Below, in pieces: positions 8,213 to 33,388 of a stretch of 64,000 nt of DNA. The notes under the pieces were generated by a model. It searched no databases, had not been told where the DNA came from, and saw only the letters and a program-made list of their open reading frames with translations. Positions within the stretch are counted from its first letter, which is position 1. Every line of letters starts with the position of its first letter. A program made the position numbers and the translations under genes. Source of the stretch: Lacunisphaera limnophila (GTDB taxonomy: Bacteria; Verrucomicrobiota; Verrucomicrobiia; Opitutales; Opitutaceae); NCBI RefSeq assembly GCF_001746835.1, contig NZ_CP016094.1, forward strand, positions 558,001 through 622,000, given 5' to 3'.

Positions 8213-9226
8213 TTACGCCCCCATCAGGAAATCCCGCCCTTCACGGTAGCCCCGCTGGGTGAGGGCTGCCCGGGTCGTTTCGCGCGCCCCCCGTTTCCCC
8301 ACGTAACCCAGCACGAAGATCGACCCAGGCGGCGGCAGCGCCTCCGGCCCGATCACCGGCACGCCGCCCACCCGGTTCCCCGTCTTGCGTGGATCAATAT
8401 CCACGTAGCCCACAATCCTGACCCCGTGCTCCGTAAGCATTGCCGCGCGCTTCCGGGTCGGCCGCCCGGCGCCCCAGATCCAGACCTCCGGATCCGGGCC
8501 CCGGAGTCGCCCCACCTCCCGCGCCACATACCCGGCCTTCACCCGGAAAAACGCCTCCGGGCCGTAACGCGGATCCGTGCGCGACAAGCGTCCGGCCGGA
8601 TCGTGCCACGTGAGCAACTCGCGCGGGACCTTCGCCATCGCCACCCCAGCCTCCAGCCAGCGCAACCAAAGCTCATAATCCTCGGGCCAATCCCCGTCCC
8701 GATACCCGCCGTGTCGTTCCACCACCTCGCGCCGGAACATGACGCTCGGATGCGCCAGCGGCGATTCCACGAACCGGTTCAGCGCGATCTGGTCCGGCGT
8801 CACCAACCCGTTCTGCCAGTCCACATGATGCGCATACCCGGCCTGGACCGACCGGTCGCCGCCGTAACCCACCCGGCAGGCCACCAACCCGATCGTCGGA
8901 TGGTCCGCCAGAAAAGCCGTCTGCACCGCAAGGCGCTCGGGGTGACACTCATCATCCGCATCCATCCGCGCGATAAACCGGCCCCGGGCCGCTGCGAGGC
9001 CTGCATTGAGGGCCGCCACGATGCCTTGCGCCGGTTGTTCGATCAGCCGCAACCGCGGCTCGGCCCGGGCCGCCGCCCGCAGCCACGCCCGCGTGCCGTC
9101 GGTCGACCCGTCGTCCACCACCACCAGCTCCCAGTCCGTCCATGTCTGCGCCTGCACGGATGCCACCGCGCGGGCGATGGTCGTGACCGCATTGCGCACG
9201 GGCAGGAGGACGGAGAGGGCGCTCAC
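8213..9226 (-). CDS. Family 2 glycosyltransferase with C-terminal Rossmann-like domain
   Basis: Residues 1 to about 215 form a GT-A family 2 glycosyltransferase: SVLLPVRNA at the N-terminus, VVVDDGSTDGT (nucleotide binding), ARMDADDECHPERL with the DxD motif, and WPEDYELWLRW with the ED acid/base pair. Residues from about 245 carry a second module starting WIWGAGRPTRKRA, followed by YVDIDPRK and GSIFVLGYVGKRGAR, which looks like a small Rossmann-type nucleotide-binding domain. There is no transmembrane segment, so it is probably cytoplasmic or peripheral and acts in surface glycan synthesis. The acceptor is unknown and no other glycan genes are adjacent. Confidence 0.85.
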   Translation of the reverse strand: MSALSVLLPVRNAVTTIARAVASVQAQTWTDWELVVVDDGSTDGTRAWLRAAARAEPRLRLIEQPAQGIVAALNAGLAAARGRFIARMDADDECHPERLAVQTAFLADHPTIGLVACRVGYGGDRSVQAGYAHHVDWQNGLVTPDQIALNRFVESPLAHPSVMFRREVVERHGGYRDGDWPEDYELWLRWLEAGVAMAKVPRELLTWHDPAGRLSRTDPRYGPEAFFRVKAGYVAREVGRLRGPDPEVWIWGAGRPTRKRAAMLTEHGVRIVGYVDIDPRKTGNRVGGVPVIGPEALPPPGSIFVLGYVGKRGARETTRAALTQRGYREGRDFLMGA

Positions 9227-9311
9227 GGGACTAGGAAAAGCCCTGAGGCCCCCGGGAGAAAGTCATTTTCCACGATTGCGTTGCCGGGAAAAATCTTACG
9301 AAGTCGGCCAT

Positions 9312-10181
9312 ATGTCAGACCGTATCTCGACCAAACCCGTCGTTGAGGAGGAATTCTCCCTGCCCCTGTTCCTGGCCGTCGTCGCCGCGTCCTTCTCGGG
9401 CGTGCTGGGCCTCGTCTGGTGGCTGGCCCCCGCGCCGGTCTGGGCCGCCCAGACCCAGTCCGCCTGGTGGCAGTACCTTGCGCTGTTTCTCGGCATCTCG
9501 ATGTTCAACTGCTTCATGGAGTTCTTCTTCCACCGCTACGTCCTGCACAAGCCGGTGCTCCCGTTCCTCAGCTACTTCTACCGCCAGCACACCCACCACC
9601 ACAGCCTCACGCGCATCACGCGTCGCCGCACGCCCGGCGGCCTCGACGTCAACTTCGTCGAAAACTACTACCCGATCGTGAAGGAGGAGCAAAAGGAGGC
9701 CTCGTTCTTCCCCTGGTACACCTACCTCGCGTTCGCCGCCTGCATGACGCCTTTCCTGGTCGTGCTACAGTGGTTCGTGCCTTCCCTTCCCTGGTTCGTC
9801 GCCGGTTATAGCGCCATCGCCTCGTCCCTGCTGATCTACGAGCTCTTCCACGCCATCGAGCACTGGTCCTTTGAGCGCTGGGCCCCGCTCATCGAGCACC
9901 CGACGTTTGGCGCGTTCTGGCGCAAGGTCTACAGCTTCCACCTCCGCCACCACGCCGTCATCGACTGTAACGAGGCGATCTCCGGCTTCTTCATCATGCC
10001 TGTCGCGGACTGGGTCTTCGGCACCTGCATCATCCCCGGCGTGCTCTACAAGCACGGCCAGACCGTGGCCGAGGAGAAGGAATTCCTCAGCCCGAAGCCC
10101 GTCGCCCTCATCCGCTGGCTCGACCGCCTGACCGACGGCCTGGTCAAGGCCCGCCGCCAGCGCGCCCAGGGCGCGGCCTGA
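9312..10181 (+). CDS. Fatty acid hydroxylase / sterol desaturase superfamily membrane protein
   Basis: An integral-membrane di-iron oxygenase. Four hydrophobic stretches and the His-box set are visible: FFFHRYVLH, QHTHHHSL, FHAIEHW and SFHLRHHAV. The start at 9312 (MSDRISTKP) follows the non-coding stretch upstream. The longer open frame from 9006 overlaps the glycosyltransferase and is rejected. 289 aa. It could hydroxylate a lipid or hopanoid/carotenoid-like substrate, which the sequence does not reveal. The gene stands alone and is followed by a GC-rich hairpin that probably ends transcription. Confidence 0.8.
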   Translation: MSDRISTKPVVEEEFSLPLFLAVVAASFSGVLGLVWWLAPAPVWAAQTQSAWWQYLALFLGISMFNCFMEFFFHRYVLHKPVLPFLSYFYRQHTHHHSLTRITRRRTPGGLDVNFVENYYPIVKEEQKEASFFPWYTYLAFAACMTPFLVVLQWFVPSLPWFVAGYSAIASSLLIYELFHAIEHWSFERWAPLIEHPTFGAFWRKVYSFHLRHHAVIDCNEAISGFFIMPVADWVFGTCIIPGVLYKHGQTVAEEKEFLSPKPVALIRWLDRLTDGLVKARRQRAQGAA

Positions 10182-10210
10182 AGCTCACGCCATCGTCCGT
10201 TTCCCTGTCG

Positions 10211-10234
10211 GGGCGCACCTCGTGTGCGCCCTTT
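10211..10234 (+). terminator. Probable intrinsic terminator
   Basis: GGGCGCAC ctcgt GTGCGCCC followed by TTT. It is an 8-bp perfect GC stem with a 5-base loop, 29 bases after the hydroxylase stop. The T-tract is short, so efficiency is uncertain. Confidence 0.6.
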
Positions 10235-10242
10235 CCGTTGCT

Positions 10243-10268
10243 GGAGGGCCCGCGTCCCTGCGGACCGG
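10243..10268 (+). repeat. GGAG-footed hairpin repeat, copy 1
   Basis: Reads GGAGGGCCCGCGTCCCTGCGG, then ACC. A second copy at 18658-18683 has GGAGGGCCCACGTCCCTGTGG at the same place. The two differ by paired changes (CGC/GCG against CAC/GTG) that keep the stem. Confidence 0.65.
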
Positions 10269-10271
10269 ACC

Positions 10272-10871
10272 TCACTTCCCGATCACGCCCTTCTTGAGCA
10301 GCTTTGACACCTTCGGCTTGATCACGAACGTGCAATAGCCCTGCGAGGGGTTGTTCTTGAAATAGTCCTGGTGGTACTTCTCCGCGGGATAGAACAACGG
10401 CAGCGGGCTGATCTCCGTGACGATCGGGTCGTCGAACAATTTCTGCGCCGCCGCCTTGCCCGCCTCCGCGGCCACCCGCTGCTCCTCGTTGTGCGTGAAG
10501 ATCACCGAGCGGTACTGCGTGCCTTCGTCCGCCCCCTGCCGGTTCAGCGTGGTCGGATCGTGCGCCTCGAAGAACACCTCGACGAGCTTCTCGTAGCTCA
10601 CGTCGTGCGGCCAGTACTCCACCCGGATGACCTCGGCATGGCCCGTCCGGCCGGTGCAGATTTCCTCATAGGTCGGGTTGGCCTTCGTGCCGCCCGCGTA
10701 GCCGCTGACCACGGCCTTCACGCCCGGCAGCAGCTCGAACACCGCCTCCGTGCACCAGAAGCAGCCGCCCCCGAAGGTGGCGAACTCGGTTTTCAACGCA
10801 GGTTTGGTTTCGGCCGTGGCAGTCATGACAAGGGAGAGAAAGAGGAGGGATAGAAAAGGGCGCACGTGCAT
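10272..10871 (-). CDS. msrA: Exported peptide methionine sulfoxide reductase MsrA
   Basis: Reduces the S-epimer of methionine sulfoxide in proteins. The catalytic motif [13 protein letters not shown] is intact, followed by [16 protein letters not shown] and AEKYHQDYF typical of MsrA. An N-terminal signal peptide ([20 protein letters not shown]) indicates a periplasmic enzyme that repairs envelope proteins. Start chosen at 10871; an upstream ATG at 10919 would precede the signal peptide with non-family residues. 199 aa. A recycling Cys is present near the C-terminus (GYCTFVIKP). It is divergent from Hsp15, with a long inverted repeat between them. Confidence 0.9.
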
Positions 10872-10922
10872 GGACGTGGGAGCAGGTAAGCCCGATTTTA
10901 TTCCAGCGCAAGGCACCAAGCC

Positions 10923-10994
10923 ATTCTCCGCGGATGGCGCGGATCAATTCCGGATAAAACCCATCCGCGTCAATCCGCGCCATCCGCGGAGAAT
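10923..10994. repeat. Long perfect inverted repeat (22-bp arms)
   Basis: Arms at 10923-10944 and 10973-10994 are perfectly complementary, with the core TCCGCGGATGGCGCGGAT and a 28-base spacer. It sits between divergent msrA and hslR. The same words (ATCCGCG, CATCCGCGGAGA) occur as half-copies at 36905-36940 and, degenerate, at 18965-19015 and 20265-20295. Confidence 0.8.
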
Positions 10995-11036
10995 TCCGTC
11001 CCTTGTCTTTTCGCGGCAGAATAATTTGCTCAGCCC

Positions 11037-11414
11037 ATGGACGATCCCCGTCTCGACAAATGGCTCTGGTGCGTGCGGGTCTACAAGACCCGCCCCGAGG
11101 CCACGGCCGCCTGCCGCGCCGGCAAGGTCTTCCTCGGCGAGCTCGAGGCCAAGCCCGGCCGCGATCTCCACGTGGGCGAGGTCGTCACCGTCCGTCTCGG
11201 CGCCCTCACCCGCACCCTGCAGGTCGTCGCCCACCCCAAGTCGCGCGTCGCCGCCAAACTGTTGCCGGCCTTCATGGCCGACCTCACGCCGCCCGCCGAG
11301 TACGAGCGCGCCAAACAGGCCGGCATCGAGCACCTCCTCGCCCGCCAACGCGGCGAGGGCCGCCCCACCAAAAAGGACCGCCGCGACATGGGCCGGCTCT
11401 TCGGCTACGAGTGA
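11037..11414 (+). CDS. hslR: S4-domain RNA-binding protein, heat shock protein 15 (HslR)
   Basis: A ribosome-recycling factor of the Hsp15 family that binds stalled 50S subunits carrying nascent chains. The S4 domain lies at the N-terminus (RLDKWLWCVRVYKTRPEATAACRAGKV), followed by VGEVVTVR and a basic C-terminus (RPTKKDRRDMGRL). 125 aa versus 133 in E. coli. It starts at 11037 with ATG. It is a single gene, and the ribosome-associated EttA lies just downstream on the other strand. RNA binding is secure; the exact ribosomal role is by family. Confidence 0.85.
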   Translation: MDDPRLDKWLWCVRVYKTRPEATAACRAGKVFLGELEAKPGRDLHVGEVVTVRLGALTRTLQVVAHPKSRVAAKLLPAFMADLTPPAEYERAKQAGIEHLLARQRGEGRPTKKDRRDMGRLFGYE

Positions 11415-11429
11415 CGGGAGGGCAAAAAA

Positions 11430-11470
11430 GGTAGCCGCGTTTGAACGCAGTGAAAGCGTGGCCGCCTACC
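11430..11470 (+). repeat. GTAG-footed imperfect hairpin
   Basis: GGTAG CCGCGTTT ... AAAGCGTGG ... CTACC: the outer GGTAG pairs with CTACC, and the inner 8-9 bp stem includes one G-T pair. Its right end (CTA at 11466-11468) coincides with the stop codon of the ettA remnant described next. Confidence 0.5.
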
Positions 11471-11535
11471 GTGTCAGCTTGCGGTACTTGATCCGATGCG
11501 GCTGATCCGCGTCCTTTGCCTCGGTTTCGCCTAGC
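11466..11535 (-). pseudogene. Remnant of a second ettA 3' end
   Basis: Read on the minus strand, this stretch ends with DADQPHRIKYRKLTR and a stop, identical over 16 codons (KDADQ...) to the C-terminus of the intact ettA 140 bases away. About 7 of the 16 codons differ, all silently. Upstream of this tail the match fades (ETEA, then unrelated) and there is no ATP-binding domain. It is therefore a leftover tail of a diverged, protein-selected copy and not a recent duplication. Replacement of an older ettA by a related one is the simplest explanation. Confidence 0.75.
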
Positions 11536-11605
11536 GAGAACCGCGGACAAACACCGGGCGGCCAGCAGGCCGCAACGGTGTTCCCCGTAAGCCGCGCCTG
11601 AGGAC

Positions 11606-13291
11606 TTACCGCGTCAGCTTTCGATACTTAATCCGGTGGGGCTGGTCCGCGTCCTTCCCCTTCCGCTTCTTGAAATCCTCGAGATAAGACGAGTAGTTAC
11701 CCGCGAACCAGTGCACGTAGCTGTCGCCCTCGAAGGCCATGATGTGCGTCGCCGTGCGGTCCAGGAACCAGCGGTCGTGCGAGATGATCACGGCGCAGCC
11801 CGCGAAGGTCTCGAGCGCCTCTTCCAACGCGCGGATTGAATTCACGTCCAGGTCGTTCGTCGGTTCGTCCAGCAGGAGCAGGTTCGCCTCGCTCTTGAGC
11901 ACGCGCGCCAGCAGCACGCGGTTGCGCTCACCGCCGGAAAGCACGCCGACCTTCTTCGACTGGTCCGCGCCGGTGAAGCCGAACTGCGCGCAGTACGCGC
12001 GGCTGTTCACCGACCGCTTGCCCAGCTGCATGATCTCCTGCCCGCCGCTGATGACCTCCCAGATCGTCTTGTCCCCCTCCAGTGAGTCGCGGGACTGCTC
12101 GACGTAGGCGGTCTTCACGGTGTCCCCCATCTTGAAGGTGCCCGCGTCCGGCTGCTCCAGGCCGGTGATCAGCTTGAACAGCGTCGTCTTGCCCGCGCCG
12201 TTCGGCCCGATGATGCCTACGATGCCGCCGGGCGGCAGCGAGAACTCCAGCTTGTCGTAAAGCAGTTTGTCGCCGTAGGCCTTGGCCACTTGCTGCGCCT
12301 GCACGACCAGGTTGCCCAGGCGCGGCCCGGGCGGGATGATGATTTCGAATTTCTTCTCCTGCTCCGCCACGTCCTGCTTGAGCATGGCCTCGTAGGCGCT
12401 GATGCGCGCCTGCGATTTCGCCACCCGCGCCTTCGCGCTCTGCCGGATCCACTCCAGCTCGCGCGCCATCGCTTTCTGGCGCTTGCTCTCCGTGCGCTCG
12501 GCCACGCTCGCCATCGCCTGCTTCTGCTCCAGCCACGACGAATAGTTGCCCTTGAACGGCAGGCCGTGCCCGTGGTCCAGTTCGAGGATCCAGCCGGCGA
12601 CGTTGTCGAGGAAGTAGCGGTCGTGCGTCACCGCGATCACGGTGCCCTCGTAACGCGAGAGGTGCTGCTCCAGCCAGTTGACCGAATCGGCGTCCAAATG
12701 ATTGGTCGGCTCGTCGAGCAGCAGGATCGAGGGTTTCTGCAACAGCAGCCGCGCCAGCGCCACGCGGCGGCGCTCGCCGCCGGACAGCGTGTCCACGATC
12801 GCCTCGCCGGGCGGACACCGCAGCGCGTCCATCGCCTGCTCCACCATCGGGGCCACGTCCCACGCGCCCAGGTGCTCGATCTTCTCCTGCAGCTTCGCCT
12901 GCTTCTCGCTGATGGCGTCGCGCGCAGCGTCATCCGCCGCCTCGGACAGCTCGTCCCAGCTGGCGTCGTACGCCGCCGTCAAATCGGTGAGGTGCTTCAC
13001 GCCCTCCTCGACGCAGGCGCGCACCGTGGCGCCGGCGGTGAGCTGCGGTTCCTGCGGCAGGAAACCCACCGGGTAACCCGGCTCGAAATGCACGCGCCCG
13101 TCGATCTCGGTGTCGATGCCCGCGAGGATGCGCATGAGCGAGGACTTGCCGGAGCCGTTCAGGCCGAGCACGCCGATCTTGGCGCCGTAGTAGAACGACA
13201 GGGAGATGTCGCGGAGGATTTCCTTGCGCTCGATCTTCTTCGAGACGCCGAGCATCGAGAAAATGATCTTGGGGGCTTCGGGCTGGGCCAT
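11606..13291 (-). CDS. ettA: Energy-dependent translational throttle protein EttA (ABC-F ATPase)
   Basis: A ribosome-binding ABC-F protein that gates the first elongation cycle according to ADP/ATP level. It has two ATPase domains: Walker A GLNGSGKSS with signature LSGGERRRVALARLL and LLLDEPTNHLDADS, then Walker A GPNGAGKTT with signature LSGGERNRVLLARVL and LLLDEPTNDLDVNS. The linker carries the EttA-typical FKGNYSSWLEQK and a basic coiled segment (RTESKRQKAMARELEWIRQSAKARVAKS). It has no membrane domain. 561 aa, as expected (E. coli 555). The C-terminus (HRIKYRKLTR) is duplicated as a ghost just downstream. Confidence 0.95.
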   Translation of the reverse strand: MAQPEAPKIIFSMLGVSKKIERKEILRDISLSFYYGAKIGVLGLNGSGKSSLMRILAGIDTEIDGRVHFEPGYPVGFLPQEPQLTAGATVRACVEEGVKHLTDLTAAYDASWDELSEAADDAARDAISEKQAKLQEKIEHLGAWDVAPMVEQAMDALRCPPGEAIVDTLSGGERRRVALARLLLQKPSILLLDEPTNHLDADSVNWLEQHLSRYEGTVIAVTHDRYFLDNVAGWILELDHGHGLPFKGNYSSWLEQKQAMASVAERTESKRQKAMARELEWIRQSAKARVAKSQARISAYEAMLKQDVAEQEKKFEIIIPPGPRLGNLVVQAQQVAKAYGDKLLYDKLEFSLPPGGIVGIIGPNGAGKTTLFKLITGLEQPDAGTFKMGDTVKTAYVEQSRDSLEGDKTIWEVISGGQEIMQLGKRSVNSRAYCAQFGFTGADQSKKVGVLSGGERNRVLLARVLKSEANLLLLDEPTNDLDVNSIRALEEALETFAGCAVIISHDRWFLDRTATHIMAFEGDSYVHWFAGNYSSYLEDFKKRKGKDADQPHRIKYRKLTR

Positions 13292-13350
13292 GAGGCGTCA
13301 AAAAGGCATATCCCCCGGCCAAGGCAAGCGCGGCGCGGAAACCCCGGGGC

Positions 13351-13383
13351 AAAAAAAGAACGCCGGGCGCGGGCCCGGCGTTC
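13351..13383 (-). terminator. Strong intrinsic terminator of the ompW-like gene
   Basis: On the minus strand GAACGCCGGGC ... GCCCGGCGTTC forms an 11-bp perfect stem with a 4-base loop, followed directly by seven T. It lies 22 bases after the stop of the gene at 13406-14035. Confidence 0.9.
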
Positions 13384-13405
13384 TGTGGAGCGAACCGTAA
13401 TTCGC

Positions 13406-14035
13406 TCAGAACTCGTAGCGCACGCCCGCGGCGTACAGCCAGGGATCGAGCCGGGCCTCGGTCAGACGGGCCGCGCCGGCATACACGCCCGAGCGGATGT
13501 AAGCGCGCTTCAGGTCGAGGTTGAAGGACCAGCGCTCGTCGAGCTTCCAGTCCACACCCGCCTGCAAAGCCAGGCCGGTGCTGTTGTTTTCCAGACGCAG
13601 GGGCACGCCGGCCACGACGAGCCGGTCATCCCAGATCAGCGTGAAATTCACGCCCGCCGCCACGTAGGGACGGATCGCCGCACCCGGCAGGGCCCGGTAT
13701 TGGAACAGCAGCGTGGGGGGTAGGTGCTTGAAGGAACCGAGCCGGCCGACGCCGGCGAGCGAGACGGAGTGTTCCTGGGGGATGGTCAACACCAGCTCGG
13801 CGGAGAGCGTGTCGGTGAAGGCATAGGCGACGTCGATCTCAGGAATCAGCTTGTCGCTGACCGACACGGCGTTCGGGGCGAAGGCGATGCCGAGGGCGGA
13901 GAAGGCGTCGGACTTGTCGACGGTCTCGAGGTAGGTGGCCCGGAGGCGGACCGACCACGGGCTGGCCGCCGGCAGGGCGGTCGTGGCGACCAGGAGGAGC
14001 AGACAGGGCAGGACTTTACGGAGGGTTTTGTTCAT
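13406..14035 (-). CDS. OmpW-family outer membrane beta-barrel protein
   Basis: A small eight-stranded barrel of the OmpW/AlkL type that may carry small hydrophobic molecules. Residues 1-24 are a signal peptide (LPCLLLLVATTALPAAS). The mature part begins SPWSVRLRATYLET, has VDVAYAFTD-like alternation and FKHLPPTLLFQY, the signature OmpW segment, and ends with the barrel-closing aromatic GVRYEF. 209 aa is the usual length. Start chosen at 14035 (MNKTLRK); an ATG at 14077 adds unlikely residues. Single gene with its own terminator. Confidence 0.85.
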   Translation of the reverse strand: MNKTLRKVLPCLLLLVATTALPAASPWSVRLRATYLETVDKSDAFSALGIAFAPNAVSVSDKLIPEIDVAYAFTDTLSAELVLTIPQEHSVSLAGVGRLGSFKHLPPTLLFQYRALPGAAIRPYVAAGVNFTLIWDDRLVVAGVPLRLENNSTGLALQAGVDWKLDERWSFNLDLKRAYIRSGVYAGAARLTEARLDPWLYAAGVRYEF

Positions 14036-14150
14036 GGGTAGGGTTGCGCCGCGTTGGAAAAATGCCAACGGAGACACAGCCTAGCCTAACCGGCGGCCGG
14101 CGGCCGGGCTCGGCATCCCTTGACCAGCCCTACGCGGGAATTGAACGATC

Positions 14151-15509
14151 TTAAACCTCGTGCAGCCGCAGCGGCACCGGGTCAATGACCTTGGCCTTGG
14201 GCAACTGCTCGGCGAGCTGGGTCTTGAACCAGTCGCGCGCATCCGGGTCGCCGTGCGTCAGCACGATGCTCCGGGCCTTGGTCTGCACCGCAAACTCCAG
14301 CAGCTCGCCGCGCTCGGCGTGCCCGCTCAGTTCGAACCGGTCGACGCGCGCCTTCACCTTGGTCCGCACATCCAGCGCATCGAAGGCAAAGGTCGCGCCG
14401 GGCTTGGTCGCCAGCAGCTTGCCACCCGGGGTGTCCGGATCGCAGTAGCCCACGAAACCGATCGTGTTGCGCGCGTGCCCGAGCAGGCCCGAGGCCAGCG
14501 CGTAGCTCGGCGTCTTCTCGACCAGCATGCCGGAACTGACGATATAAAGGCCCTTCTGCGCCGGCTCCTGGCCGGGCATGATCTTCTTCGGCAGCTTGCG
14601 CAGGCCGAGATCCTTCAGGATGCGCATGTCGAACTGCACGTCCTTGGTCTTGCGCGAGACCTCATCAAAGAGCTCCGACAGGCCGATGCCCAGGCCGCCC
14701 GCGTAGATCGGGCACTCGATGAGCCGGCCGAAGCGGCGGGCGTCATGGAAGACCGCCAGCAGCTCCTGCATGCGCCCGAGAGCGAACACCGGCAGCAGGA
14801 ACGAGCCGCCCTTGGCGATCGTGTCGTTGATCGAGTCGATCAGGCGGGCGATCTCGTGCACCCGCTCCTTGCCGTAGGCGCGCTCGGTCATGCCGCGCGT
14901 CGTCTCGATGATCAGCGTGTCGAAATGACCGATCGGGAAATGCGCCCCCTTCAGCGTGCGCAGGTGCTCGAACAACACGTCGCCCGTCAGGAAAATCTTC
15001 CGCATGCCGTGGTGGATCTCGACCGCCGTCGCCCCGGCCACGTGGCCCGAGGGATGGAACATCAGCTCGATCTCGCCGCGCTTGCCCTTGATCTTTTTGA
15101 CCTTCTTGAAGGGCAGGCCCACGAACCGCTTGGTCAGGCCCTCGATCTCCTTGTGCGTGAACAGCGGGTAGCCGGGGACCCCGTCCTCCTCCTTCTGCTT
15201 CTGCATCACGTTGGCGGAATTGTGCAGCATCTTCTCGATCAGCATGCGGCTCGACTGCGTGAGTAGCACCGGGGTCTTCGGGTGCTGGCGCATCACCACC
15301 GGCAGGCCGCCGATATGGTCGAGGTGACAGTGCGTGATGATGATGAGGTCCAATTCGATGTCGCGGAGCAGCGAGAGGTCCGGCAGGGCGCCGACCCCCG
15401 GGGTCTTGGGGTTGAGCCCGCAATCCACGAGGATGTTCAGATCACCGATCATCAGAAGGAGGGAATTGGCGCCGATACCGCCTTGGCGGTTGAGATCGAT
15501 GAGTTTCAT
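14151..15509 (-). CDS. MBL-fold beta-CASP ribonuclease-like protein
   Basis: A metallo-beta-lactamase nuclease of the CPSF73/YSH1-like beta-CASP group. The zinc motif THCHLDHIGG lies near residue 60, a second His at HPSGHVAGA, an Asp at LTGDVLF, and the late His motifs SGHAERGEL and LTHGDPDA. The insert around residues 235-350 carries the beta-CASP cap. 452 aa with no signal peptide, so it is cytoplasmic. Such proteins process or degrade RNA; there is no RNase J C-terminal domain. It is a single transcription unit, and its substrate cannot be read here. Confidence 0.85.
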   Translation of the reverse strand: MKLIDLNRQGGIGANSLLLMIGDLNILVDCGLNPKTPGVGALPDLSLLRDIELDLIIITHCHLDHIGGLPVVMRQHPKTPVLLTQSSRMLIEKMLHNSANVMQKQKEEDGVPGYPLFTHKEIEGLTKRFVGLPFKKVKKIKGKRGEIELMFHPSGHVAGATAVEIHHGMRKIFLTGDVLFEHLRTLKGAHFPIGHFDTLIIETTRGMTERAYGKERVHEIARLIDSINDTIAKGGSFLLPVFALGRMQELLAVFHDARRFGRLIECPIYAGGLGIGLSELFDEVSRKTKDVQFDMRILKDLGLRKLPKKIMPGQEPAQKGLYIVSSGMLVEKTPSYALASGLLGHARNTIGFVGYCDPDTPGGKLLATKPGATFAFDALDVRTKVKARVDRFELSGHAERGELLEFAVQTKARSIVLTHGDPDARDWFKTQLAEQLPKAKVIDPVPLRLHEV

Positions 15510-27153: not shown

Positions 27154-27728
27154 ATCCGCTCCGCCTGCTGCTTTGCCTTCTGCTCACCGTCGGTTGCGCG
27201 CTGCGCGCCACACAAATTCGCCTCCACACCGACCTCGGCGTGATCGAGGCCGAGCTCGACGCCGCCCACGCCCCGGCCACCGTCGCCAACTTCCTGAAAT
27301 ACGTCGACGCCGGCCGCTACACCGGCGGGGTTTTCCACCGCACGGTCACGCTCCAGCCCGACAACCAGCCGAACAACACAGTGAAGATCGAGGTCATCCA
27401 AGGCGGCGTGAATCCGGAATATTCTGAAAAAGACTGGCCCGCCCTCGCCCTCGAGCGCACCCGCGACACCGGCCTCTCTCACCTCGACGGCACCCTCTCC
27501 ATGGCCCGCGCCGGCCCCGACACCGCCACCTCGGATTTCTTCATCTGCGTCGGCGCCCAGCCCGAGCTCGACTTCGGCGGCAAACGCAACCCCGATGGCC
27601 AGGGCTTCGCCGCCTTCGGCCGCGTCACGCAAGGCATGGACATCGTGAAGAAAATCCAGACAGCCCCCGCCGACGGCCAGAAACTCACTCCCCCGGTCAA
27701 AATCTTGAAGATCGAGCGTCTGCCCTGA
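27150..27728 (+). CDS. Exported cyclophilin-type peptidyl-prolyl isomerase
   Basis: A periplasmic cyclophilin (192 aa) that speeds proline isomerisation in exported proteins. Signal peptide in residues 1-20 (LLLCLLLTVGCALRA). The fold is recognisable from TDLGVIEAELDAAHAPATVANFLKYVD, GVFHRTV (catalytic Arg), IQGGVNPE, LSMARAGPDTATSDFFICVG and FAAFGRVTQGMDIVKKI. The catalytic Arg-Phe-Gln set is mostly kept. Its ATG overlaps the preceding stop. The Cys in the signal region (TVGCALRA) is near a lipobox position, so it could be a lipoprotein. Confidence 0.88.
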   Translation: MNPLRLLLCLLLTVGCALRATQIRLHTDLGVIEAELDAAHAPATVANFLKYVDAGRYTGGVFHRTVTLQPDNQPNNTVKIEVIQGGVNPEYSEKDWPALALERTRDTGLSHLDGTLSMARAGPDTATSDFFICVGAQPELDFGGKRNPDGQGFAAFGRVTQGMDIVKKIQTAPADGQKLTPPVKILKIERLP

Positions 27729-27779
27729 TTCCGATCCACCACCCGAATCTCCCGAAGGTCGTTTCGATTTGCCTGAAGG

Positions 27780-27804
27780 GGAACCCGGCCTCCTGACGGG
27801 TTGT
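27780..27804 (+). repeat. AACCCGGCCTCC hairpin repeat, copy 2
   Basis: GGAACCCGGCCTCCTGACGGG then TTGT. It shares 12 bases with copy 1 at 18626 and keeps the AACCC/GGGTT pairing. Confidence 0.55.
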
Positions 27805-27817
27805 TCGAGCCATCCCC

Positions 27818-28642
27818 TTACCTGCCCCTCAGCTCGAAGATCGTCACCTCCGGCCGCACGTTGAACCGCACCCGCGTCAGATGCCCGAGCCCGCGGTTGA
27901 TATAAAGCTTCCGGCCTCCGCTCAGCGCAAACTCCCCCGCCGTGTACCGGCGGTTCTTCACCGGCAACAGCGGGGGCGGCAGAAACGGCGGGCGACACTG
28001 CCCGCCGTGCGTATGCCCCGCCAGGATCCACCCGGAAAATCCGTCCCAACCGGATTGATCGCACGCATCGGGATTGTGGCACAACACCAGCGCAGGCGCG
28101 TTCGCTCCGGTCAGCCAGTCCCCGCCATGCGCGCGCCCCGCCCACAAGTCATCCATCCCGCCGATGCGCAAGCCCTGCACCGCGACCGCCGTGTTGCGCA
28201 GGACCACGACGCCCACCTCCGCCAGGATTAGCGCGACGGCGTCGGCCACCTCCCCCTCTCGCCACGCCGCTCCGTAATCGTGGTTCCCCAGCACCGCCAC
28301 CGTGCCACTTCGGCCCCGCGGCAACCGGTCAGCCAGCCGCCGGAACTGCTCCAGCGTCCGCGGGCCCGCATACGAGATGAAGTCCCCCGTGTACGCCACC
28401 AGGTCCGGCCGCAGCCGCGCCACCGTCGCAAACACCCTCACCAGGTAATCATCCGATACCCGGTCCCCCACATGCAGGTCGCTCAACTGGAGCAGCGTGC
28501 GCCCGGCCCACGCCAGCGGCAGGCCGCGTATCGGCATCTGCCGGCGGACATACTCCTCCCACGTCGGTTCGATCCGCCACGAGTAGAGCCCGGCCAGCGC
28601 GGGCACCGCCAGCAGGCCGCAGAATTGCCGACGCGTGATCAC
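27818..28642 (-). CDS. Metallophosphoesterase (YkuE/YaeI-like)
   Basis: A calcineurin-like phosphoesterase with an N-terminal signal or anchor (MITRRQFCGLLAVPALAGLY, with twin-Arg). Motifs: DLHVGDR, AYTGDFISY, GNHDYGAAW, CHNPD and GHTHGGQ cover all five metal-ligand blocks. Members act on UDP-diacylglucosamine-like or phospholipid substrates, or others. 274 aa, and the twin-arginine start suggests Tat-dependent placement in the envelope. It is not obviously linked to the cre genes 40 bases away. Confidence 0.88.
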   Translation of the reverse strand: MITRRQFCGLLAVPALAGLYSWRIEPTWEEYVRRQMPIRGLPLAWAGRTLLQLSDLHVGDRVSDDYLVRVFATVARLRPDLVAYTGDFISYAGPRTLEQFRRLADRLPRGRSGTVAVLGNHDYGAAWREGEVADAVALILAEVGVVVLRNTAVAVQGLRIGGMDDLWAGRAHGGDWLTGANAPALVLCHNPDACDQSGWDGFSGWILAGHTHGGQCRPPFLPPPLLPVKNRRYTAGEFALSGGRKLYINRGLGHLTRVRFNVRPEVTIFELRGR

Positions 28643-28682
28643 GCCGGCTGCAGTAGCCTATTCGAACTCGTGCGCGCTCGGT

Positions 28683-29381
28683 TCATGGGCCGGTCTTGAC
28701 CCCCGCTTCCTGTGCGAACCAATCCACGTGGCGGGTGAAGAACATCACCGCCGCCATCACGACAAACAGCGCGGCCGTCCCTGCGAGCAGCGCATAATCC
28801 TCCATGCGCAACACCACATAGAGCACCCCGTGCTCCGCCGCGAGCAGTGCCGCGATCGAGCCCGCCCGGGCGTAGCTGTGCAGGATCGAAACGCTGTACC
28901 CCACGATGAGCAGCGACGACGCCACCGCCGCCCCGATATAAGCCAGCCCCGGCGTCAGCACCTCGCCGAGGGCCAGCAGCGCCAGGTAGAACAGGCACAG
29001 CGCGCCGCCCACCAGCCCGTAGTGGACCGCGTGCAGCCTCAGCCCGGCCAGAGTCTCGAATAGGAAAAATGCCGCGAACACCAGCGTCAGCACCAGCACG
29101 CTGTGCTTCAACGACCGCTCCACCATCCGGTAACCCTCCGCCGCCGCCACGGCCGGCGTCGGGATCCGCGCCGCTTCTGCCGGCGCGTCCGCCAGCTCGG
29201 CCCGCTGCCGCGTGTGCGCCGCTTCCCGGTTGCCGCTGCGCTCTTGCCTGAGCCCGTTGATCAGGGCCAACGGCACGTGGAGCACGAGCACCAGCACGGC
29301 GATGAAGAGCAGTTTCAGGGTGACGGTATGCCGGCGACGCGGGGTCGGCGGCGGAATCAGGGGCGGCAGGGTGTTTTCCAT
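28683..29381 (-). CDS. creD: CreD family inner-membrane protein, internally shortened
   Basis: CreD is the CreBC-regulated envelope protein. The N-terminal helix (LKLLFIAVLVLVLHVPLALINGLRQERSGNR) and the C-terminal helices (KHSVLVLTLVFAAFFLFETL, LHAVHYGLVGGALCLFYLALLALGE, GVLYVVLRMEDYALLAGT, MFFTRHVDWF) all match CreD by eye. The large periplasmic domain that normally separates them (over 200 residues) is replaced by about 44 residues, giving 232 aa instead of about 450. It is in frame with no sign of decay. A perfect cre-tag lies 23 bases upstream. Confidence 0.85.
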   Translation of the reverse strand: MENTLPPLIPPPTPRRRHTVTLKLLFIAVLVLVLHVPLALINGLRQERSGNREAAHTRQRAELADAPAEAARIPTPAVAAAEGYRMVERSLKHSVLVLTLVFAAFFLFETLAGLRLHAVHYGLVGGALCLFYLALLALGEVLTPGLAYIGAAVASSLLIVGYSVSILHSYARAGSIAALLAAEHGVLYVVLRMEDYALLAGTAALFVVMAAVMFFTRHVDWFAQEAGVKTGP

Positions 29382-29403
29382 GCCCCCACCCTGCCAGACT
29401 CCC

Positions 29404-29419
29404 GTGAAGTCCGTGTGAA
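29404..29419 (-). promoter_or_regulatory. Perfect cre-tag (CreB operator) upstream of creD
   Basis: On the minus strand TTCACACGGACTTCAC, which equals the CreB/BlrA binding consensus TTCAC-N6-TTCAC. It sits 23 bases upstream of the creD start, and creB itself is encoded 2.1 kb upstream. I found no second copy by eye in this window. Confidence 0.85.
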
Positions 29420-29456
29420 GGCCCGATGAATTCGGGGCTAAATCCCCCAGATCAAG

Positions 29457-29493
29457 CCGGGTGAAGCGCCTTGCCCCCAAGGCGCTGGCCCGG
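29457..29493. repeat. CGCCTTGCCCCCAAGGCG repeat, copy 1
   Basis: Stem AGCGCCTT ccccc-type loop AAGGCGCT, flanked by CCGGGTG and GGCCCGG. Copy 2 is at 44893-44930. It lies between creD and the SYLF gene. Confidence 0.65.
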
Positions 29494-29516
29494 GGCATTT
29501 CCCCGCCGGCCTTGCC

Positions 29517-30098
29517 TCAGTTCAGATCCTTGTCCTGCCAGTATTTCGTGCCTTGCAGCGTCGCCTGCAGGGCGAGGCCGTTCTTCGTGATCTGATAAAC
29601 CTCCACGCCCTCGACAATATTTCCGGCTCCGGCGGCGGCGCCGCCTTTCTCGCCGGACTTGGCGGCGGCGTCCGCCTGGCCGCTGAAATCCCAGCCCTTC
29701 TCCACGAAGGCCGTGAGCTTCGCCTTGTCGTTGAACACAAACACCGCGCGAAAATCCTTCACGCCCAGCCCGATCCCGATGCCGGCCGACCCCATCTTCA
29801 TGAAGGTCTCCGTATCCTTGATCCGGCCCTTTGCCACCACCACGCCATGCCCTCCGGCGAAACTGGCGAACACGAGGTTCACCCCGACATTCGAAAACAC
29901 CGCATAGCCGGCCGCTTTCTTGATCTTCGCCTTGGTCCCGGGATTCAGCGCGTACAGCTCCTTGAGGACCTCGTCCCGGGTCTCCCGGATCTTGGCCCGC
30001 TGCTCGTCGGGCGAGTCTTTCGCGATCGCCAAGGGACCGGAGATCAGGAGTCCACACAGCAACCCGACACGAAGGAGGAAAGGCAGGAGCGTTTTCAT
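29517..30098 (-). CDS. Exported SYLF (YSC84-like) domain protein
   Basis: A 193-aa protein with a signal peptide (residues 1-26, FLLRVGLLCGLLISGPLAIA) and a SYLF/YSC84 domain that binds lipids: AKIKKAAGYAVFSNVGVNLVFASFAGG, HGVVVAKGRIKDTETFMKMGSAGIGIGLGVKDFRAVFVF. A Gly/Ala linker (AAAKSGEKGGAAAGAG) precedes the last strand segment. It lies between creD and creC on one strand, so it may be part of the cre module. An envelope role fits. Start at 30098. Confidence 0.8.
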   Translation of the reverse strand: MKTLLPFLLRVGLLCGLLISGPLAIAKDSPDEQRAKIRETRDEVLKELYALNPGTKAKIKKAAGYAVFSNVGVNLVFASFAGGHGVVVAKGRIKDTETFMKMGSAGIGIGLGVKDFRAVFVFNDKAKLTAFVEKGWDFSGQADAAAKSGEKGGAAAGAGNIVEGVEVYQITKNGLALQATLQGTKYWQDKDLN

Positions 30099-30158
30099 GG
30101 GAGTGCCGCCCAGTTTGCGCGCCGGGCCCCGCGCGGCAATCCACAAACCGGCGCCGGT

Positions 30159-31523
30159 TCAGGCCGCCGGCAATTCCAGGCTCGCCCGAGCCCCACCCTC
30201 CGGCCGGTTCTCGAGCCCGGCCTCGCCGCCATGCAGGTGCGCGATCTCCCGGACCAGGGCCAGCCCGAGGCCGGTGCTCTTCCGTTCGGTTCCCGGACGC
30301 GGCAGCGAGTAGAAACGCTCGAACACCCGCGCCTGCGCAAAATCCGGCACCCCGGGCCCCTGGTCCTCGACCGTGAACAACACCCGGCCCGCCTCGCCGC
30401 GCGCCGCCAGCGTCACGGCGCCGCCGGACGGGGAAAAATCGAGCGCGTTCTGCAACAGGTTCACCAGCGCCTCCCGCAACAACACGGCCTCACCGCGCAC
30501 CTGGGCCCCCTCGCCCCCGTGCACCGACACGCGGATCCCCCGGGGCTCCCCCGCCGACCGCACCGTGTCCGCCGCCGCCCGCATGAGCCCCTCGACCGGC
30601 AGCATTTCCACCTGGCGCAGCTGCTTGCGTGCCTCAAGCGAGGACAGTTCCAGCAGGCGATCGATGATCCGCTGGATGCGGGCGGACTCCGTGCGAATGT
30701 TGGCCAGAAATTTCTGCCGCTGCTCGACCGGCATCGTTTCATCCAGCAATTCGGCGGCGCCCCGGATGGCGGACAACGGCGCCTTCACCTCGTGTGCCAG
30801 CGTCTGCGTGTACCGCTCGACATGCTGCCGCCCCTCCAGCGCCTCGCGCATCTCCTCGAAAGCCCGGCCCAGTTCGGCGATCTCCCGCGCCCGCGAAACG
30901 GGCGGGGCCGCGGGCCGGCCGTCGCGCACGCGGTGTGCGTAATCGGTCAGTTTTTCCAGGGACCGGGTCAGCCGCGCGGCAATCCACCACCCCAGCACCA
31001 CCATCACCCCCGCGATCGCCCCGATCAACGCGACGAGCCGCCAGCGCGCCGCGCGCACGCCCTCCTCCACGGCCGCGAGCGGCCGGCCGACCCCGACCCA
31101 CCCCAGATGCTCTCCTGCCGCCAGCACCCGCGCCACCACCCGGAGTTCCCCCTCGACCACCGCGACGTTCGAAACCGTGTAACCTTCGGAGGCGTTGTAG
31201 CCACCGCCGCGCATCGGCCACTGGTAGACTTGGTTCAGATCCTTGTCCGCGGAGTCGAAGATCACCTTTCCCTCCCGGTCGCAGGCAAACACCCGCAGCA
31301 GGTCCGTCTGCTTCGGGAGGGTCGCGAGTTTCGCCGTCCAGTCCTCCCCATCCGTCGCCGGCGCGGCAAATGCTGCCATGTAGGCCGCCGTGTCACCGAG
31401 CGTGCGGCGCATCGACTCGACATAGCGCAGCCGCACATCCCGCAACACCAACCCCGTTACCGCCACAAGCCCGAGCGCCGAGGCGCCCACATACACGACG
31501 AAGATGGCCGTGCGGATTCTCAT
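30159..31523 (-). CDS. creC: Sensor histidine kinase CreC
   Basis: A membrane kinase (454 aa) with TM1 near residues 7-26, a periplasmic Cache-like domain, TM2 near 163-182, a HAMP stretch and the kinase core. It resembles E. coli CreC closely by eye: CDREGKVIFDSADKDLNQ, GRPLAAVEEGVRAARWRLVALIGAI, YTQTLAHEVKAPLSAIRGAAELL (His244), NLLQNALDFSPSGG, ARVFERFYSLPRPG, STGLGLALVREIAHLHGG. It responds to an unknown envelope or metabolic signal and phosphorylates CreB. ATGA overlap with creB. Confidence 0.9.
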   Translation of the reverse strand: MRIRTAIFVVYVGASALGLVAVTGLVLRDVRLRYVESMRRTLGDTAAYMAAFAAPATDGEDWTAKLATLPKQTDLLRVFACDREGKVIFDSADKDLNQVYQWPMRGGGYNASEGYTVSNVAVVEGELRVVARVLAAGEHLGWVGVGRPLAAVEEGVRAARWRLVALIGAIAGVMVVLGWWIAARLTRSLEKLTDYAHRVRDGRPAAPPVSRAREIAELGRAFEEMREALEGRQHVERYTQTLAHEVKAPLSAIRGAAELLDETMPVEQRQKFLANIRTESARIQRIIDRLLELSSLEARKQLRQVEMLPVEGLMRAAADTVRSAGEPRGIRVSVHGGEGAQVRGEAVLLREALVNLLQNALDFSPSGGAVTLAARGEAGRVLFTVEDQGPGVPDFAQARVFERFYSLPRPGTERKSTGLGLALVREIAHLHGGEAGLENRPEGGARASLELPAA

Positions 31524-32215
31524 TGCTCCCGCAGCGCGTAGCCCAGCCCGCGGTGCGTCACGATCGGATCCGCCTCCGGCGCCACCTCCCGCAGCTTGGC
31601 GCGGAGGGTCTTGATGTGCGCATCCACCGTGCGATCCAGGGCGGAGCCCGGGTCGTCCCACGCCGCGACCATCAGCTGGTCGCGGCTGAAGACCCGGCCG
31701 GGCGCGGCGAGCAACGCGCCCAGCAGCCGGTATTCGTTGCGCGTGAGGTCGAGCGCCTGCCCGTGAAAACTAATGCGGCACCGGCCCTCGTCATGGGACC
31801 AGCCCGTCGCCGCCGCGGCCACCGGCGGCGCGGCCCCGCTCGTACCCGCGCGGCGCAGGATCGCCCGCACCCGCGCCGTCAGCTCCCGCGGGCTGAAGGG
31901 TTTCGCCAGGTAATCATCCGCCCCCAGCTCCAGGCCCACGATGCGGTCAACCTCGTTGCTCCGCGCGGTCAGAAAAATGATTGGCGGTGCCCCCTGCTTC
32001 TGCAGCTCCCGGCACACGTCGAAGCCGCTCATGTCCGGCAGCCCCACATCGAGCACCACCAGCGCCACCGGCTGCTGCCGCACCCACGTCAGCGCCTCCC
32101 GCCCGCTGGTTTTCCAAATCGGGTGGAAACCCTCCGTCTGCAGTGCATAGACGATGGTCTCGGCGATCGCCGCCTCATCCTCCACCACGAGCACGGTCTG
32201 ACGGGTTGCGGACAT
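31520..32215 (-). CDS. creB: Response regulator CreB
   Basis: OmpR-type regulator, 231 aa. The receiver has VVEDEAAIAETIVYALQTEGF, phospho-acceptor VVLDVGLPDMSGFDVCRE (Asp56) and Lys105 in AKPFSPREL, all matching CreB (DVGLPDISGF, PFSPRE). The winged helix is at the C-terminus (DRTVDAHIKTLRAKLR, THRGLGYALREQ). It should bind the cre-tag at 29404 and activate creD. It is co-transcribed with creC and precedes it. Confidence 0.92.
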   Translation of the reverse strand: MSATRQTVLVVEDEAAIAETIVYALQTEGFHPIWKTSGREALTWVRQQPVALVVLDVGLPDMSGFDVCRELQKQGAPPIIFLTARSNEVDRIVGLELGADDYLAKPFSPRELTARVRAILRRAGTSGAAPPVAAAATGWSHDEGRCRISFHGQALDLTRNEYRLLGALLAAPGRVFSRDQLMVAAWDDPGSALDRTVDAHIKTLRAKLREVAPEADPIVTHRGLGYALREQ

Positions 32216-32294
32216 GTCCCTTGCTTGTGCCGGGCGCCCCCGGCGCTGACAAGCCGGCTCTGCACCCGATCCGTCGCGCCGCCCGCCGGCCCGC

Positions 32295-32564
32295 TCAGCT
32301 CGTCACGGCCACGAGGTCCAGTTCCGGCTCCCGCTCCATCACGGTCTGCCACGCTCCGGCCAGTTGCCAGAGCGGGCGAATTTCATTCAGAAAGAGCGCG
32401 TGCAATCCCACGGCCACCTGCACCGGGCCCATGCACTTAAGCCACAGGGCCTGCGTGCTGTCGCCCGTCAGACCGTTGGGCGCAAAGACCTGCGGCCAAA
32501 GCTCCGGCAACAAAAACAGGGTCACTCCCAGCAGCAGGAAGGCGAAGGCGTTGGCGGTGTTCAT
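32295..32564 (-). CDS. Small hypothetical membrane protein, 89 aa
   Basis: Two hydrophobic stretches (AFAFLLLGVTLFLLPELWP and MGPVQVAVGLHALFLN) suggest two membrane passes. The family is unknown to me. The start at 32564 (MNTANAF) is chosen; an ATG 9 bases upstream is also possible. The C-terminus is short and acidic. It lies 79 bases downstream of creB's start in the opposite sense of transcription continuity, that is on the same strand and upstream of creB, so co-transcription with creBC cannot be excluded. Confidence 0.6.
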   Translation of the reverse strand: MNTANAFAFLLLGVTLFLLPELWPQVFAPNGLTGDSTQALWLKCMGPVQVAVGLHALFLNEIRPLWQLAGAWQTVMEREPELDLVAVTS

Positions 32565-32677
32565 GCCCCCCATGGACCCGGTGTTCCCCGCCGGGTGCCG
32601 GTCCCGGTTTTTTATTTCAGCAAGCGGGGCCCGCCGCGGAACATTCCCCGCTCGTTGTCACCGACCGGCCTCGGGGT

Positions 32678-33388
32678 TTATACGTCCCCGCGTTGGGGAC
32701 GGAGCACGATCTCCTCCAGCACCGTGCGGCGGCTGAGCCGGTGGGCGTCGACGATCGCCTGCGCGATGTCCTCGGCCGGCATGATGCGTTCCGGCTTCAC
32801 GCCGCTCTGCGCCCAAGAGGGCGACCACGTCGCCCCCGGGTGCACGCAACACACGCGGATGCCCTGCTCCTTGGTCTCCGCCCGCAACACCTGGGCCAGG
32901 CCCGTGACGCCAAACTTCGCCGCGCAATAGGCCGCCGCATTCGGGTAGGCCCCGAGCCCGGCGATCGAGCTCATGAAGAAGATATCGCCCTGCCGGCGCT
33001 GCACCATCACCGGCAGGAATGCCTGCGTCACCAGAAACGCACTGCGCAAATTCACCGCGATCATGCGGTCAAACGCCTCCAGCGTCGTCTCCGCAAAGGG
33101 CGCCATGGCAAACGCCCCGGCGTTGTTGACCAGCACATCCACCGCCTTGAACCGGCGCCGGACCGCGGCGGCCATGAGGGTGACCGACGCCTCGTTGCTG
33201 ACATCACACTCGAAGGCCTCGGCCTTGGCGCCCGCTTTCTGACAGGCCTGCGCCACGCGCTGCAGGTTCTTCACGTTCCGCGCCACCAGCACCAGCCGCA
33301 CCCCGCGGATTTGCCGGGCAAAGGCCAGGGCCACGGCCTCACCGATTCCCTGTGAAGCACCACTAATAAGCACGATGGGAGCACGCAT
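32678..33388 (-). CDS. Short-chain dehydrogenase/reductase
   Basis: A classical SDR, 236 aa. Cofactor motif SGASQGIGEAVALAFA, structural NNAGAFAM, catalytic Ser in FFMSSIAGLG, and YCAAKFG (Tyr/Lys). The cofactor loop after the second strand (VLVARNVKNLQ) suggests NADP(H). Start at 33388. The substrate is unknown and no pathway genes adjoin. It is divergent from the porin gene. Confidence 0.9.
   Translation of the reverse strand: MRAPIVLISGASQGIGEAVALAFARQIRGVRLVLVARNVKNLQRVAQACQKAGAKAEAFECDVSNEASVTLMAAAVRRRFKAVDVLVNNAGAFAMAPFAETTLEAFDRMIAVNLRSAFLVTQAFLPVMVQRRQGDIFFMSSIAGLGAYPNAAAYCAAKFGVTGLAQVLRAETKEQGIRVCCVHPGATWSPSWAQSGVKPERIMPAEDIAQAIVDAHRLSRRTVLEEIVLRPQRGDV

Follow-up and report, generated by a model that had tools for sequence, protein, structure and literature searches.

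A predicted CreB operator-promoter module of fixed plan in front of creD in Lacunisphaera limnophila

CreBC has been studied in few gammaproteobacteria, and its signal and regulon there are still unclear. The accessible parts of two reports (PMC3660660, PMC4689548) give TTCAC-N6-TTCAC as the consensus of CreB/BlrA in gammaproteobacteria and place this tag and its CreB/BlrA dependence in E. coli and Aeromonas, with a degenerate putative tag in S. maltophilia. Excerpts of other reports describe a response of CreBC to wall damage: in P. aeruginosa it answers the loss of PBP4 or cefoxitin and links PBP4 loss to beta-lactam resistance (PMC2654508), and in E. coli damage by colicin M raises creD and cbrABC (PMC3599342). 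As far as their accessible parts go, two community studies contain both CreBC and "Verrucomicrobi" (PMC9769763, PMC12542696), and CreB does not occur in the main text of PMC8041468. The window analysed here, a 64-kb stretch (64,000 nucleotides) of the L. limnophila genome, holds a single exact match to the consensus, TTCACACGGACTTCAC, at 29404-29419 on the minus strand. This is the creD strand, as the preliminary description had claimed, and the tag does lie upstream of creD, with 22 nt rather than the 23 bases given there separating it from the ATG. Is this tag an operator for CreB, so far from the gammaproteobacteria, and is it the whole of that operator? Our analysis points to a larger feature, a predicted module in which CreB operator and promoter follow one fixed plan, together with a predicted regulon (Table 1).

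Table 1. Features of the creD locus, in window coordinates
Feature	Coordinates	Strand	Remarks
creB, OmpR/PhoB-family response regulator	31520..32215	-	NCBIfam equivalog NF008296, 331 bits (cut-off 273)
creC, sensor histidine kinase	30159..31523	-	NCBIfam equivalog NF008312, 392 bits (cut-off 356)
SYLF/Ysc84-domain gene, between creC and the operator	29517..30098	-	PF04366; no tag of its own
Distal half-site TTCAT	29426..29430	-	predicted -49..-45; from the sequence, the locus dimer scan and the triple-array search
Middle half-site TTCAC	29415..29419	-	predicted -38..-34; first half of the tag
Proximal half-site TTCAC	29404..29408	-	predicted -27..-23; second half of the tag
Predicted -10 element CAGGGT	29388..29393	-	A at +12 and T at +16 past the last half-site
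creD, short form, 232 aa	28683..29381	-	Pfam CreD 173 (cut-off 23); A of the ATG at 29381

The creB, creC, SYLF and creD genes all lie on one strand. The creB product is 53% identical to E. coli CreB and falls in a tree inside one group of 55 CreB rows (support 99/97), apart from 18 other regulators; creC begins a few bases before creB ends, and its product is identical to E. coli CreC at 153 of 398 aligned positions. A CreB equivalog with an adjacent CreC equivalog, both past the NCBIfam cut-offs, makes this a CreBC-type two-component system, so that the relatives announced by the preliminary description are indeed present, with creB, at 2.1-2.8 kb from the tag, slightly further off than the 1-2 kb it gave. 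The creD product reaches 175 bits against the 275-bit cut-off of the full-length CreD equivalog, because in this short form a good match is confined to the last third of the profile (best stretch 283-427 of 428 positions in Pfam, 284-428 of 429 in NCBIfam); judged by these matches, it is a CreD relative with a shortened architecture. Eight congeners have the short CreD in common, at 76-83% identity, and other congeners keep a long CreD. The N-terminal stretch and the C-terminal membrane block are kept in the short form and the middle extracytoplasmic part is missing, a natural deletion that could show the role of this part. Relatives of the SYLF gene were not found by tblastn at 80 creD loci from titled genomes, a set outside of which the congener loci lie.

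Read on the minus strand, the region before creD runs TTCAT-CGGGCC-TTCAC-ACGGAC-TTCAC-GGGAGTCTGG-CAGGGT-GGGGGC-ATG, that is, three half-sites, ten bases, a -10-like hexamer, six bases and the creD start. The additional half-site, TTCAT, absent from the tag as first described, is in 11-bp phase with the other two and completes an array TTCAT-N6-TTCAC-N6-TTCAC at 29404-29430 on the minus strand. The perfect dimer is thus a part of the operator and not the whole of it, and the dimer alone is not diagnostic. Work by Cariss in 2008 reportedly dealt with the sequences on which activation of E. coli promoters by CreBC depends. Among the literature matches listed, none recognisably described a third half-site or placed CreB operators beyond the gammaproteobacteria. 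Since no further dimer (TTCAY, one mismatch allowed) was found in 27601-32700 on either strand, we rejected autoregulation of creB, creC or the SYLF gene.

Perfect tags are not scattered in numbers through the genome (4,199,284 bases), which has three, the creD tag and two others at 3383943 and 3962291. These two overlap ORFs of 321 aa and 75 aa (called by a crude gene finder) and have neither an adjoining half-site (in the 22 bases upstream shown) nor the A and T at +12 and +16 past the last half-site (A+12/T+16) discussed below, and the perfect dimer was therefore rejected as a diagnostic. That a short TTCAC-N6-TTCAC just happened to fall near creD is an explanation to which we give almost no credence. 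Such dimers do arise by chance, as the two further ones, the two matches of the reversed-pattern control and the shuffled windows (mean 0.10 perfect dimers, at least one in 10 of 100) attest, yet the genome's density predicts only ~1e-4 of them for the 135-bp gap ahead of creD, the array stands at the same place before creD in congeners and in the family members with creD, with differing spacers, and the site associates with CreB across phyla (see below). Variants of the creD site were seen in G003 and G028, which keep the dimer only, and in G001, which has TTCAT-N6-TGCAC-N6-TTCAT (one mismatch); creD of G034 was left unjudged, as the contig ends inside the gene.

In 57 relatives, a search for the triple array TTCAY-N6-TTCAY-N6-TTCAY, a pattern of which the -10 is not part, matched 24 genomes, and its reversed control gave one match in the 57. 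Arrays were present in 21 of the 23 genomes with CreB above the NF008296 cut-off (the exact pattern being missing from G003 and G034) versus 3 of the 34 without (p 2e-10). The latter are G004, G027 and G044; the creD fragment of G004 sits at a contig end, so that its CreB is perhaps absent through an assembly gap. Within the genus, G002, G005, G007, G008, G013 and G019 lack the array, CreB above cut-off and creD together, three of these six being <92% complete. In a phylum sample of 337 genomes, searched with the -10 added to the pattern, arrays occurred in 23 of the 50 genomes with CreB versus 14 of the 287 without (p 8e-13; reversed control 0/337), the exact pattern being missing from 27 of the 50, and because the scoring covered 8 candidates per genome CreB may be missed in this sample. 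G099, for instance, was counted as CreB-negative and has a divergent CreB (65/57% identical) beside its array; the other arrays without CreB above cut-off are in G141, G185, G249, G252, G313 and eight genomes of genus g56. Corrected for G099 and the site shared in g56, the counts become 24/51 versus 6/279. The eight g56 genomes (loci L267-L273), in which no CreB is recognisable, share one near-identical array site ending ATGAATGT.

The same association holds at creD loci beyond the family. We sorted 80 creD loci from titled genomes by linked CreB (a CreB match >150 bits, 16 loci); 74 of them entered the dimer scan and 73 the matrix test, from which loci that begin too close to the end of a contig were left out. 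Dimers with at most one mismatch preceded creD at 11 of 16 linked versus 4 of 58 unlinked loci (reversed control 0/74). Where an unlinked locus has an array or dimer (L040, L046, L056, L074, L084), its genome carries CreB elsewhere, and no CreB above cut-off was found in the 17 genomes with an untagged, unlinked creD, which were searched whole. A 43-column matrix, trained on 28 Opitutaceae sites before genes other than creD, gave at least 15 bits at 17 of 18 CreB-positive creD loci (the eighteenth, L084, scores 12.6) versus none of the 51 loci without known CreB (17 genomes searched whole, 34 only around creD), which score at most -5.9, in a grouping that is partly post hoc, as the five unlinked loci with CreB elsewhere were placed among the 18, and L081, L092, L103 and L096 were set apart as "distant" after the results; under the original linked rule (>150 bits), 13 of the 16 linked loci score at least 15. 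When each locus was compared with its shuffles, all 18 CreB-positive loci and L096 beat 100 of 100, as did none of the 51. The linked regulators of L081, L092 and L103 are divergent (35-43% identical), and these loci have no array at creD; L096 has an array-like site and a CreC, at a contig edge, in a genome with no CreB above cut-off. Among the CreB-positive loci that score on the matrix, L104 and L083 come from MAGs with the titles Spirochaetes and Deltaproteobacteria, respectively, for which binning errors are possible; their CreB is not close to Opitutaceae CreB. In the relatives, the phylum and the creD loci alike, presence of the cre-tag follows CreB, with the exceptions named.

Co-occurrence could also arise if the array were read by one or more other OmpR/PhoB-family regulators that co-occur with CreB, creBC being a bystander. 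A few genomes without recognisable CreB (G141, G185 and G027) do keep arrays, and an array at 1399541 of the L. limnophila contig heads the genes of another two-component system, as such regulators would explain. We nevertheless regard this as improbable, because the array follows CreB even where creBC lies elsewhere in the genome and in other phyla, because it matches the CreB/BlrA tag in the accessible parts of PMC3660660 and PMC4689548, and because the reading head of CreB is conserved. The recognition helix (DRTVDxHIKTLRAKLR) is nearly identical in the E. coli and window CreB, differing at one residue. K200 is found in 55 of 55 CreB rows and T201 in 38 of 55, as opposed to R at these positions in 13 and 16, respectively, of 18 other regulators, so that K/T in CreB faces R/R in most other regulators of the same genomes; H219 is found in 50 of 55 CreB rows, where 17 of the 18 others have V or I. 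The suggestion in the preliminary description that conservation far from the gammaproteobacteria extends beyond the proteins to the operator thus gains support from the family arrays, the CreB-positive creD loci and the recognition helix, all of them comparisons at the sequence level. "Conserved" is here compatible with descent or with transfer. A CreB tree was tried as a means of telling the two apart and rejected, its backbone being unresolved and E. coli sitting on a long branch.

Evidence on how the array might act comes from the spacing of what follows it. After merging of overlaps there were 48 arrays, of which 46 were examined, with G015:C526 and G044 left out (both also show A+12/T+16). 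In these 46 Opitutaceae arrays, which include orthologues and are thus not independent, an A occurs 12 bases past the last half-site in 44, a T at 16 in 42, and both in 42, and the A..T pair at any other offset is never seen in more than 4 of the 46. The pair is found in 28 of 31 arrays before other genes and in 14 of 15 before creD, and it recurs upstream of several gene families that blastp does not link to one another. Among the exceptions, L013, L194 and L201 show A+12/T+16 and an ATG at 22-24 once one extra degenerate half-site is counted, and L192 does not fit even with an extra half-site. The ATG itself lies 22 bases past the array in 18, 23 in 5 and 24 in 9 of the 46. With A and T four bases apart, at an exact distance from the array and with the other positions free, A+12/T+16 has, by its pattern, the mark of a -10 element (NANNNT) and not of a ribosome site. 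A combined pattern of dimer, -10 and ATG was tried for counting and recovers the known sites, yet it also matches AT-rich CreB-free genomes and controls and was therefore not used for counts.

The spacing could be read otherwise, with the CreB site repressing or only modulating, the real creD promoter lying elsewhere (for example as read-through from creBC-SYLF) and A+12/T+16 reflecting a ribosome site or a coding constraint. A weak ribosome site could be present in the G-rich bases that separate the array from the ATG (CAGGGTGGGGGC), and the shared strand of the four genes would permit read-through; however, we find this very hard to reconcile with an A and a T that keep the exact -10 pattern at the array distance before unrelated genes, or with the increase in creD expression that CreBC/BlrAB brings about in E. 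coli, P. aeruginosa and Aeromonas, according to the part of PMC4689548 available. Given the array, its spacing, its co-occurrence with CreB and the reading head, the tag is very probably the core of a CreB-controlled promoter for creD. At this promoter, CreC would phosphorylate CreB in response to a presumed signal, and CreB~P would bind head-to-tail to the three 11-bp-phased TTCAY half-sites at 29404-29430 instead of a -35. With the last half-site at -27..-23, CreB would recruit RNA polymerase to the fixed -10 CAGGGT and activate transcription. The distances are observed; the remaining step is arithmetic, in that taking T+16 as -7 puts base 23 at +1, so that the mRNA should start on the ATG. 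For creD we predict a leaderless mRNA that starts on the A of the ATG at 29381.

In PhoB-dependent promoters, the 11-bp direct half-sites of the pho box (TGTCA) take the place of the -35, the last of them stopping some 10 bp short of the -10. The arrays with A+12/T+16 (42 of 46) have this PhoB-type geometry, with half-sites at a fixed distance from the -10 in place of a -35, and PhoB belongs to the same OmpR/PhoB family as CreB. The CreB plan differs from that of PhoB in its half-site, TTCAY and not TGTCA, in the recognition residues of its regulator (K200/T201, where most other regulators of these genomes have R/R), in its gene set and in its predicted leaderless start.

E. coli CreBC/CreD and Aeromonas BlrAB share with the locus the regulator and kinase families, the creD target and the TTCAC-N6-TTCAC core. 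When the E. coli promoters are read directly, cbrB has TTCAC-N6-TTCAC with TAAATT at the +12/+16 place, and creD has TTCAC-N6-TTCAC-N5-TTCAA followed by CATAGT, so that a -10-like hexamer stands at the Opitutaceae distance in both, for creD only if the weak third half-site TTCAA at 10-bp spacing is counted. Both reach only low scores (5.8 and -7.5) when the Opitutaceae matrix is applied to them, and the best windows in the matrix and offset scans differ from the sites read directly. Among 14 gammaproteobacterial creD promoters, whose CreB presence was mostly unchecked, a dimer with at most one mismatch occurs in 4 (reversed control 1/14). This weak dimer score was replaced afterwards by a three-half-site score with a fixed -10, by which, for the 14 promoters plus the E. 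coli two, offset 12 comes first among 22 offsets, with half-site scores that add up to 169.5, followed by 156.0 at offset 23 (12+11); four loci reach at least 12.5 at offset 12, and at a threshold of at least 13.5 offset 23 has three and offset 12 one. The scan is only suggestive of a shared -10 spacing. The Opitutaceae sites differ from the tag of E. coli and Aeromonas, stated as a pair, in having mostly three or four half-sites, and from the E. coli system in the ATG on the predicted start and, in the L. limnophila genome, in the short CreD.

The gene families that follow arrays are creD, YceI (PF04264), VIT+VWA (PF08487 plus VWA models; with arrays in five genera), DUF3142 and DUF2975, together with three families of about 60, 180 and 242 aa without a Pfam match that are hydrophobic by eye. 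The arrays would mark a predicted CreB regulon, small and family-wide, in which the same promoter plan would drive mostly membrane and exported proteins. Single array-led genes were also seen (L181 twice, L192, L198, L199), some of which may be there by chance. The predicted regulon (YceI, VIT/VWA, DUF3142, DUF2975 and unnamed membrane proteins) differs from that of E. coli CreBC, for which the accessible part of PMC3962086 names the metabolic targets ackA-pta and talA; neither was found among the array-led genes. We also considered whether the unnamed membrane proteins are related to E. coli CbrB and rejected this, as blastp gave no significant match (best E 2.1). In the L. limnophila genome there are three arrays: one before creD, one at 1399541-1399567 of the contig, outside the window (L174), before a YceI gene with the genes of an OmpR-type regulator and a histidine kinase behind it, and one before a pair of small genes for membrane-like proteins of 62 aa and 189 aa. 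A cascade from CreB to a second two-component system through the array at 1399541 is possible. In G001, an array-led YceI gene (C3:208) has a regulator about 1 kb beyond it.

We somewhat favour a broader reading in which the cre-tag is one piece of a rigid and more ancient promoter code with three or four 11-bp-phased TTCAY half-sites, an invariant distance to the -10 and a start on the initiation codon. In Verrucomicrobiota, spirochaetes, deltaproteobacteria and gammaproteobacteria alike, the regulator would have kept its fitting operator, whether through descent or because the two travelled together; the envelope regulon (CreD, YceI, VIT/VWA, DUF3142, DUF2975 and new membrane families) would be unlike that of E. 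coli, and CreB would stand above a second two-component system in L. limnophila. It would be an example of a regulator and its operator remaining paired across a great distance, in a geometry that lends itself to clean tests. As so strict a promoter code can be read from sequence, the CreB regulon could be listed in many uncultured species, and the array names candidate envelope-stress genes, those for YceI, VIT/VWA, DUF3142 and DUF2975. Two further arrangements were observed in the family. At L007 and L012 (G011 and G012), the array heads an ORF of 97 aa or 84 aa that ends at the creD start, the inserts between promoter and creD being two unrelated-looking small membrane-like genes. At L200 (G024, 9091-14582), a VIT/VWA gene and creD lie ~4 kb apart downstream of creB, each with a four-half-site array.
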